Positions 38,590 to 57,273 of a DNA stretch of 64,000 nucleotides are shown piece after piece; position 1 is the stretch's first letter; the number at the start of each line of letters is the position of its first letter. A program made the translations under genes and the position numbers. The stretch is from Streptomyces fulvoviolaceus (GTDB lineage Bacteria > Actinomycetota > Actinomycetes > Streptomycetales > Streptomycetaceae), in contig NZ_JOEY01000015.1 in NCBI RefSeq assembly GCF_000718165.1, positions 1-64,000 of the forward strand, read 5' to 3'. The notes under the pieces were generated by a model. It had not been told where the DNA came from. It searched no databases and worked only from the letters and a program-made list of their open reading frames with translations.

Positions 38590-41500
38590 GTGTGCGGTTC
38601 CGAGGAAGTCCTGGCGTACTGGCGGCGGTTGCTCACCCCGCTCCCTCTGGAGACCGCACTGCCGGCAGATCGGCCACATCCGCCGGAGCCAGCGCCGGAA
38701 CGCCAGGTCCACACCGTGTATGACGTCCCCGAGGCCCCCGACCCCGTACGGCTCGCGGCCTTCGTGGCCCTGCTCCACCGCTACGGCGGGGCCGTGGACA
38801 TCACCGTCGGGTACGACGAACTCCCGGTGCGGGTCTCCGTCGAACACGAGCCGACCTTCCGGGAGTTGACGCTGCGGGTGACGCAGGCCTGGGAGGAGGC
38901 CGTGGCCCAACGGGTGCCGGTGGACCTCCTGGTGGACGAACTGCGTCCTCGGCCGACGCGCGGCGGCGGGCTGTTCTTCAACACGGCTTTCGGTACGGCC
39001 GACCGCGCCACCGGAGAGCATCCCGGTCCCGTCGACCTCCTGCTGGAGACGGGCGAAGGCACGGCACGGGCGACGTACAACCCAAGTCTCTTCGACGGTA
39101 CGACGGTTCAGCGCCTGCTCGTCCACTACCGCACCCTGCTCACCGACGCCCTGGCCCACCCCGATACCCCGGTCGCCCGGCTCGCCCTCATGGGCCCGGA
39201 GGAGTACGAGCAGGTCGTCGTCGGCTGGAACGCCACCGCGCACTCGGTCCCCGCCGGAACCTGGCCCGCGATGTTCGCCGAGCAGGTCCGGCTGCGCCCC
39301 GACGCCGTCGCCCTGGTCTTCGAGGACGAGGAACTCACCTACGCCGAGCTGGACGAGCGGGCCAACCGCCTCGCGCACGCCCTGATCGCGCGCGGCGCCG
39401 GCCCCGAGCGCATCGTGGCGCTGGCGCTGCCGCGCTCCCTCGAGCTGATCGTCGCCGAGGTCGCCGTCCTCAAGTCCGGTGCCGCCTATCTGCCGATCGA
39501 CCACGACTATCCGGCGGACCGGATCGCGTACATGCTCGGGGACGCGGTGCCCGTGTGCACGGTGACCACGCAGGAGACCGGCGAGGGCCTTCCCGACTTG
39601 CTGGAGCTCGACTCCCCTGCCATGAAGGCCGAGTTGGCGGAGTTGCCGAGCCACGACCCCACCGACGAGGACCGCGGCGGACCACTCACCGTCCTCAACG
39701 CCGCCTACGTGATCTACACCTCGGGTTCCACCGGACGCCCCAAGGGAGTCGTTCTCTCGCACGCCGGCGTGGCGAAGCTGGTCGCCACGCAGAGCGAGCG
39801 GTTCGGCATCGGACCGCACAGCCGGGTGCTGCAGTTCGCCTCGCCGAGCTTCGACGTCGCCTTCTGGGACCTGTGCCTCGGGCTGCTCTCCGGCGGCCGT
39901 CTCGTCGTCGTACCGGCCGAGCGCCGGGTGCCAGGACCGCCGCTCGCGGACTACGCGAACGCCCACGGGATCACGTTCATGATCCTGCCACCCGCTCTGC
40001 TCGCCGCGATGCCTGATGACGTACAACTGCCGCCCGCGGCCACCCTGTTGGCGGGGACCGAGCGGGTCTCCCCCGAGCTGGTCGGGCGGTACGCGCGTGG
40101 GCGGATGATGTTCAACGCGTACGGCCCCACCGAGGCGACCACCAACTCCACGCTGGGGCTGTGCGATCCGGACACCCCGGCCGGGGCGATCGTGCCGATC
40201 GGGGTGCCCGACCCGGGGACGCGGGCGTATGTGCTCGACGCCTTCCTGCGGCCGGTCCCGGCGGGTGTGACGGGCGAGTTGTACCTCGGGGGCGCGGGAC
40301 TGGCCCGGGGGTATCTCGGGCGCCCGGACCTGACCGCGGAACGGTTCGTCGCGGATCCGTTCGGCGCGCCGGGCGAGCGGCTGTACCGCACGGGTGACCT
40401 GGTCCGATGGCGGGCCGACGGGCGGCTGGAGTTCCTCGGCCGGGCCGACGCCCAGGTCAAGATCCGTGGCTTCCGCATCGAGCCGGGCGAGATCGAGTCC
40501 GTACTGCGCGGGCATCCGGCCGTCGACCAGGTCACGGTGACCGTCCGCGAGGACCGGCCCGGCGACCGGCGACTGGCCGCGTACGTCGTCCCCTCCCTCG
40601 ACGGACCCGACGTCCGGGTGGAGGAGTGGAAGCAGGTCCACGAACTCCTCTACAGCGCCGCCGGCACAGAGGGCTCTCAGGAGAACTTCGCGGGCTGGAA
40701 CAGCATGTACGACGGCCGGCCGATCCCCGTGGAAGAGATGCGCGAGTGGCGGGAGGAGACGGTCGCCCGCATCCGCGCACTCGGCTCTCAGGGACGGGTG
40801 TTGGAGATCGGCGTCGGCAGCGGACTGATCCTGAGCCGCATCGCGCCCGACTGCGAGAGCTACTGGGGCACCGATCTCTCCACGGAGGCGATCAGGACAC
40901 TGCGCGCCCAACTCGACCCCCAACTGGCGGCCAAGGTCGAGCTGCGCGCCCAGCCCGCGCACGACACCGACGGGCTGCCCGTCGGCTACTTCGACGCGAT
41001 CGTCCTCAACTCCGTCGCCCAGTACTTCCCGAGTGCCGCGTACCTCACCGACGTACTGCGCCAGGTCTCGGGGCTGCTCGCGCCCGGCGGGCGGATCTTC
41101 GTCGGGGACGTACGCAATCTGCGGCTGCTGCGCACGCTGCGGGCAGCTGTCGAGACACGGCGGGCCGAGGAGTCGGACGACAAGAACGCGCTGCGGGCCG
41201 CCGTCGAACAGTCGGTGCGCTGGGAGGGCGAGCTCCTGCTGGACCCGGACTTCTTCGCCGCGCTCGACGGGTTCGACGCGGAGATACGGATCAAGCGGGG
41301 TATTCATCACAACGAGCTGAGCCGGTACCGGTACGACGTCGTCCTGCGCCCCGGACCACGTGCGATCCCTCCGGAGGAGCGGGTGGTCTCCTGGGCGGAG
41401 GTCGGCACGGGGCTGACCGATCGGCCTCGACGGCTACGCATCACCGGAATCCCCAACGCCCGGCTCTCCGACGACCTGGCGGACCTGTGGCGGCTGGAGG

Positions 41501-57273: not shown

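Follow-up and report, generated by a model that had tools for sequence, protein, structure and literature searches.

The gene cluster in the window, a stretch of 64,000 nucleotides from Streptomyces fulvoviolaceus (contig NZ_JOEY01000015.1), is very probably a siderophore cluster of the scabichelin/turgichelin type, and of the turgichelin kind that has serine at position 4. Judged from codes and domains, its product is most likely turgichelin, a compound already described. A sequence-only reading of the same DNA had announced a new siderophore; this novelty is not supported, as the predicted formula is that of turgichelin and the cluster type has been described. The claim thus becomes an identification that can be checked by a single mass in LC-MS. 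What is read directly from the DNA is the order of genes and domains, the codes, the iron-box-like sites and the conserved gene order; residue chemistry and order, N5 linkage, release, stereochemistry and regulation are predicted.

At the centre of the cluster lies a nonribosomal peptide synthetase (NRPS), encoded by an unbroken frame with a GTG start. Its domains were called with Pfam on overlapping pieces, with NCBIfam on single domains and with HMMs made from the window's own domains, and follow the order (partial C)-A1-MT-T / C-A2-T / C-A3-MT-T / C-A4-T / C-A5-T-E. The Pfam and NCBIfam matches comprise five AMP-binding domains, two methyltransferases, five PP-binding domains, four condensation domains and the terminal E; together with the own-domain HMMs they bear out the five modules, with methyltransferases in modules 1 and 3, that had been read earlier. 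Of a condensation domain at the N-terminus, only the rear part is present within the first 200 aa; the earliest HHxxxDG-like motif of the frame stands at aa 1331 and belongs to the C domain of module 2. Pfam detected no thioesterase domain in the NRPS pieces scanned. The T domains carry LGGDSI at T1, T2 and T5 and LGGHSL at T3 and T4. The gene and its domains are:

38590..57273, +, NRPS of five modules, 6,227 aa (ORF list, sequence, Pfam, own-domain HMMs)
39277..40629, +, A1, code DVWILGATN, predicted for N5-formyl-N5-hydroxyornithine (code similarity)
40642..41364, +, MT1, N-methyltransferase of module 1 (PF08242 and others; LEIGVGSGL in sequence)
43534..44979, +, A2, code DVWHLSLVD, serine (pocket code, NCBIfam)
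45322..46644, +, C domain of module 3, with VGRHLILWDGWS replacing HHxxxDG; predicted acylation of the hydroxyornithine N5-hydroxylamine (alignment)
46687..48039, +, A3, code DM(E/W)NLGLIN, N5-hydroxyornithine (pocket code, Pfam)
48082..48804, +, MT3, N-methyltransferase of module 3 (PF08242)
50977..52404, +, A4, code DVWHMSLVD, serine (pocket code, tree); scabichelin-type relatives have an Orn-type code here
54082..55524, +, A5, code DAWEGGLVD, N5-hydroxyornithine (equal to the printed scabichelin module-5 code)
55867..57249, +, terminal epimerisation domain, HHLVVDGVS intact (TIGR01720, 88.5 bits, cut-off 74.2)

These nine-residue codes were taken from a MAFFT alignment, in which place 301 of A1 is G and A3 reads DMWNLGLIN; the third place of A3 is E or W depending on the position of a one-residue gap. 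The pocket residues quoted earlier, DVWHLSLV and DVWHMSLV for serine in A2 and A4 and DM(E/W)NLGLI for hydroxyornithine in A3, were right. The A1 and A5 codes had been called unassigned, yet both match scabichelin-family hydroxyornithine codes. The A5 code consists of the nine residues read of DAWEGGLVDK, printed as the hydroxyornithine code of the scabichelin cluster (PMC7692728), a comparison that covers nine of the ten places. In the same source, modules 1 and 4 of nrps-3 from Phytohabitans flavus are called haOrn, an antiSMASH call (PMC7692728); we read them as DVWILGAVN and DVFILGAVN, and the A1 code of the window is one residue off the former. By similarity to this call, A1 would be a loader of an acyl-hydroxyornithine, N5-formyl-N5-hydroxyornithine.

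The predicted combination N-Me-fhOrn + Ser + N-Me-hOrn + Ser + hOrn with a C-terminal lactam has a computed composition of C24H44N8O11 (620.31295). This equals the formula of turgichelin, whose [M-H]- ion is printed as C24H43N8O11 (PMC10458595, in a table of putative MS annotations citing the 2013 paper). Replacing one Ser (position 4) by Orn gives C26H49N9O10 and 647.3602 (computed); the mass of scabichelin is printed as 647.36 (PMC7692728). The same arithmetic reproduces C22H39N7O10 for albisporachelin (formula in PMC6024995), and that source gives scabichelin and turgichelin as tris-hydroxamates that, unlike albisporachelin, are not all-L. Codes and formula match thereby speak for the earlier proposal of a tris-hydroxamate pentapeptide hOrn-Ser-hOrn-Ser-hOrn, as the MT1 and MT3 domains and the formula match do for N-methylation from modules 1 and 3. 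That turgichelin and not scabichelin is indicated, with Ser for Orn and C24H44N8O11, comes from the codes and the computed formula; the formula match leaves residue order, linkage and stereochemistry unfixed. A near-identical described cluster with known product, named earlier as what would refute the novelty claim, is found in the scabichelin/turgichelin cluster type, although no cluster is tied here to a named turgichelin producer.

Turgichelin is reported to have been described by Kodani et al. in 2013, and its residue order is used here as background. In the proposed pathway L-ornithine would be N5-hydroxylated and, for residue 1, also N5-formylated. Module 1 would load formyl-hydroxyOrn and N-methylate it, module 2 would add Ser, module 3 would add hydroxyOrn via its N5-hydroxylamine and N-methylate the alpha-amine, and modules 4 and 5 would add Ser and hydroxyOrn. 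As the formula has a single formyl group and the C-terminus would be cyclic, the backbone bond to the N5-hydroxylamine of residue 3 should be the third hydroxamate, and since this bond would run through N5, the alpha-amine of that residue would be left for MT3. For release without a thioesterase domain, the hydroxylamine of the terminal hydroxyOrn would close onto the thioester. The product would bind Fe(III) by three hydroxamates, formyl, backbone and cyclic. By a general rule for T-domain motifs, which we take to apply, LGGDSI at T1, T2 and T5 suggests D configuration of residues 1, 2 and 5.

The flanking genes supply the remaining functions expected of such a pathway; the ornithine N5-monooxygenase, formyltransferase and importers noted earlier are indeed present (PF13434; PF00551; FecCD, ATPase, Peripla_BP_2):

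32910..34235, -, L-ornithine N5-monooxygenase (PF13434, E 1.3e-105)
34318..34336, no strand, iron-box-like palindrome upstream of the formyltransferase and the divergent monooxygenase
34339..35307, +, formyltransferase, predicted for hydroxyornithine N5-formylation (PF00551/PF02911)
35286..36227, -, ferric-siderophore importer ATPase (PF00005; best NCBIfam matches FepC/FecE-like, under curated cut-offs)
36160..37332, -, ferric-siderophore importer permease (FecCD PF01032)
37378..38499, -, ferric-siderophore importer permease (FecCD PF01032)
38510..38528, no strand, iron-box-like palindrome between importer and NRPS genes
57290..57499, +, MbtH-like protein, 69 aa (PF03621, 101 bits)
57518..58684, -, ferric-siderophore binding protein, Peripla_BP_2 (PF01497)
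58654..60399, -, ABC exporter half, predicted for siderophore export (PF00664 + PF00005)
60396..62171, -, ABC exporter half, predicted for siderophore export (PF00664 + PF00005)
62180..62198, no strand, iron-box-like palindrome upstream of the exporter/binding-protein genes

The exporter pair would secrete the siderophore, the binding protein, FecCD permeases and ATPase would re-import the ferric complex, and the promoters would be iron-repressed. The search for iron-box-like palindromes, in which each site lies three mismatches from the consensus used, gave four matches, one site being counted on both strands, where 0.01 were expected; none of 100 shuffles had four. At 34318 and 38510 the letters are identical in Streptomyces sp. 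MNU76 (L095) and S. stelliscabiei (L097); the downstream flanks of these two (L096, L098) have no iron-box-like site at three or fewer mismatches. Both relatives keep monooxygenase, formyltransferase, importer, NRPS, MbtH, binding protein and two exporters in the window's order, with flanking proteins 76-93% identical, and a formyltransferase orthologue of 88-89% identity stands beside the NRPS in two relatives. A PQQ-type beta-propeller protein (29777-31930, +) and a ThuA-domain protein (31947-32894, +) adjoin the cluster; neither has a match in the fetched flanks of the two relatives, and their genes are thus probably outside it. Elsewhere in the window, 7238-8749 (-) encodes a single protein with Ada metal-binding, AraC HTH and AlkA N-terminal domains.

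With the A3-MT3 region as query, at least 80 loci were found in named genomes, and eight of those listed have five modules in one frame and a terminal E (L010, L015, L017, L018, L019, L020, L054, L055); among these matches module 4 is of Ser type in five and of DGWD type in three. In a search of the genus, 39 of 392 Streptomyces genomes, the window's own genome among them, have a match of at least 77% that spans 566 or more of the 581 residues. Below these, equally long matches reach at most 55%, and matches of 74-84% over about 310 residues come from lines without this MT. From the 38 other Streptomyces genomes 20 were fetched; most of the 18 left out either have a frame of some 7,300-7,460 aa, which probably means six modules, or are truncated at a contig end, so the finding of five modules in 20 of 20 is partly the result of selection. 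One of the fetched genes (L142) is cut, and the two sets overlap, the contigs of L146, L147 and L150 being equal in length to those of L055, L017 and L019. Throughout this chosen set of 20 further Streptomyces NRPSs, codes 1, 3 and 5 recur together with a DVWH serine code at module 2, and module 4 is of Ser type in 12 and of Orn type in 8. One genome, which we take to be S. scabiei 87-22, has an Orn-type module 4, as scabichelin would need.

Some relatives depart from this pattern. Among the matches listed, six-module versions (L021, L022, L023, L027, L030, L064) have one more module, of Ser or Orn type, ahead of the final one and apparently would make a larger siderophore of the same family. 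In another genome (G259, chromosome of 11,540,835 bases) the NRPS occurs twice, at G259:C1:787308 and G259:C1:10751765, mirrored close to the two chromosome ends, which would fit terminal inverted repeats of at least about 0.79 Mb that contain the cluster. In plasmid records no match covers 80% of the query.

The cluster might instead make a new isomer or close congener of turgichelin, with the same residues and another stereochemistry, linkage or acyl group, but we consider this unlikely. Identity to the 20 relatives read is no more than 72-85% for the window NRPS, and identity of the binding protein is 70-87%, which leaves some room for such a compound, as does a stereochemistry predicted from LGGDSI at T1/T2/T5, LGGHSL at T3/T4 and one terminal E. 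However, the T motifs are identical in 19 of the 20 relatives, the remaining one having V for L at T5, and the substrate classes of the five codes are those of 12 of the 20. Scabichelin and turgichelin are described as not being all-L (PMC6024995), an outcome that a terminal E would give.

From a single cluster, S. scabiei reportedly produces scabichelin as well as turgichelin (PMC8914351), and a module-4 code therefore need not predict a single product. Relaxed selection at module 4 might thus give scabichelin as well or instead, or the cluster could be silent; yet the NRPS frame is unbroken, and the window's A4 groups with Ser-type domains, away from the Orn-type module-4 domains, which makes these outcomes very improbable. 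Tsukubachelin was considered as a further candidate product. A previously undescribed pentapeptide siderophore would agree with the codes and module order, but the turgichelin formula is matched exactly, and codes, domain order and gene order are those of the described family; we would be greatly surprised if this reading were correct. Turgichelin remains the preferred identification.

The C domain of module 3, whose motif VGRHLILWDGWS departs from HHxxxDG, is of interest in its own right. It may represent a distinct hydroxamate-forming class that joins the upstream residue to the N5-hydroxylamine of hydroxyornithine instead of the alpha-amine, HHxxxDG having been given up since this nucleophile needs no general base, or the base sits elsewhere; we put this forward tentatively, as a proposal with slightly less than even odds. 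C and E domains from the listed loci, the fetched Streptomyces NRPSs and the window were aligned with MAFFT and sorted into classes according to the code of the A domain that each one feeds. From 505 domains, 16 identical ones and 7 without motif columns were dropped and 482 counted. Among the matches listed, 97 C domains feed a DMxN hydroxyOrn A domain, and the aligned place of the second His holds Leu in 90, Val in 4, Phe in 2 and His in 1 (L038). It is thus non-His in 96 of the 97 C domains feeding internal hydroxyOrn, and kept in all 296 other classified domains of these matches: 114/114 feeding Ser, 52/52 feeding C-terminal hydroxyOrn (DAWEGGLVD), 57/57 feeding fhOrn, 21/21 feeding Orn-type A domains and 52/52 E domains. 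In the class 'other' of the listed matches it is kept in 51 of 53, and the two exceptions (L025, L044) by position feed a hydroxyOrn module with a split A domain. C domains without a following A keep it in 13 of 36 cases among these matches; the other 23 (22 Tyr, 1 Pro) mean that loss of this His extends beyond hydroxamate formation. Most four-module relatives end in such a C domain with HY for HH (22 of the 36 listed without a following A; loci L060-L063, L066-L070, L072-L074, L076, L077, L079-L082, L085-L088), possibly a cyclising terminal C domain.

These counts depend on the motif register, which is uncertain: HHLILWDG-like motifs also allow a reading in which four residues separate HH from DG. 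In the MAFFT alignment and in phmmer against PvdL chains alike, the gap falls upstream and Leu is aligned with the second His. With the register shifted by one, 82 of the 97 listed DMxN-feeding C domains keep His, and 15 of the 97 have no His in any of three candidate places. On a tree of 89 selected C domains, whose rows are related, the DMxN group needs 4 changes, 3 of them forced, which argues for few origins. Most DMxN domains come together in a single supported group, whose 20 rows are 19 DMxN domains plus the 'other' domain of L025; a second group of three (Actinomadura, Crossiella) lies near it, and C6 of the six-module lines, with the aligned second His kept, sits inside the same larger group.

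Since modules 3 and 5 take the same amino acid and only module 3 is expected to join it via N5, the motif change would go with the bond and not with the substrate; in module 5, where hydroxyOrn is presumably joined via its alpha-amine, the C domain retains the aligned second His. For the C13 domain, a role of the second His in substrate positioning is described (PMC10587159). We found no published account of the module 3 motif in the scabichelin/turgichelin family in the open-licence literature. If the proposal is true, side-chain linkage becomes predictable from sequence in hydroxyornithine siderophores, and the family offers a natural experiment on the debated role of the second His.

A second side finding concerns module 4. 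Over the tree of the other modules, its A domain is reconstructed as having switched between Ser and Orn type at least five times in 21 lines. This tree, of modules 2, 3 and 5 with module 4 excluded (quick method, SH-aLRT only), requires 6 changes of the Ser/Orn label, at least 5 forced by starred branches. Label shuffles are as low in 212 of 500 cases for Ser and 220 of 500 for Orn, a scatter like that of randomly placed labels. When A2, A4 and A5 from the 21 lines are put on one tree, A2, A5 and Orn-type A4 each form one side of a well-supported branch, and Ser-type A4 forms one side with weak support (88/58). Identity between the window and S. stelliscabiei (L010) falls to 27-47% over aa 4121-4420, against 80-87% with the Ser-type L054. 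Co-variation of the binding protein with Ser or Orn at position 4 is not supported in our set, in which some rows are tblastn pieces rather than whole proteins: its tree shows 6 changes against a shuffled mean of 6.7, with 217 of 500 shuffles as low for Ser and 191 of 500 for Orn, and the best single column is equalled or beaten in 54 of 300 label shuffles. Recurrent replacement of A domains is known from microcystin synthetase (PMC2174460); in the open-licence literature we found no published account of the module-4 exchange in the scabichelin/turgichelin family. Its alternating A domains are natural examples of NRPS reprogramming by one domain.

Among known systems, coelichelin (CchH) shares with the cluster the hydroxyornithine code DMENLGLIN, formyl-hydroxyOrn and ABC uptake, and its assembly line has three modules and no N-methylation; the window NRPS has five modules instead of these three. 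Albisporachelin resembles the predicted product in N-Me-formyl-hydroxyOrn, Ser and a cyclised hydroxyOrn, but has four residues, all printed as L, an N-methyl on the cyclic residue and two formyl groups (PMC6024995). P. flavus nrps-3 (L056) shares the printed domain organisation and the A5 code (PMC7692728) and differs in module 4, where DVFILGAVN is fhOrn-like, and in a non-Ser module 2. Its NRPS, like that of Streptomyces sp. I6 (L025), reads as several separate long ORFs, through either real breaks or sequencing errors.

The scabichelin cluster of S. scabiei 87-22 is SCAB_85431-85521 (PMC8914351). Features of this type, five modules with MT in 1 and 3, a terminal T-E without TE and the module-5 hydroxyornithine code DAWEGGLVD, are all found in the window, and its order of monooxygenase, formyltransferase, importer and exporter genes is that of S. 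stelliscabiei. The S. stelliscabiei NRPS (L010) has the same five modules, MT positions, terminal E, A1, A2, A3 and A5 codes and flanking gene order. It differs at module 4, DGWDAGLVD (Orn-type) in place of DVWHMSLVD, and within L010 the window's A4 matches the A2 domain best (60%), not module 4; the other domains are 81-90% identical, except MT1 (75%) and C4 (73%). With turgichelin itself, compared by formula alone, the likeness is the predicted C24H44N8O11, and no difference is known.
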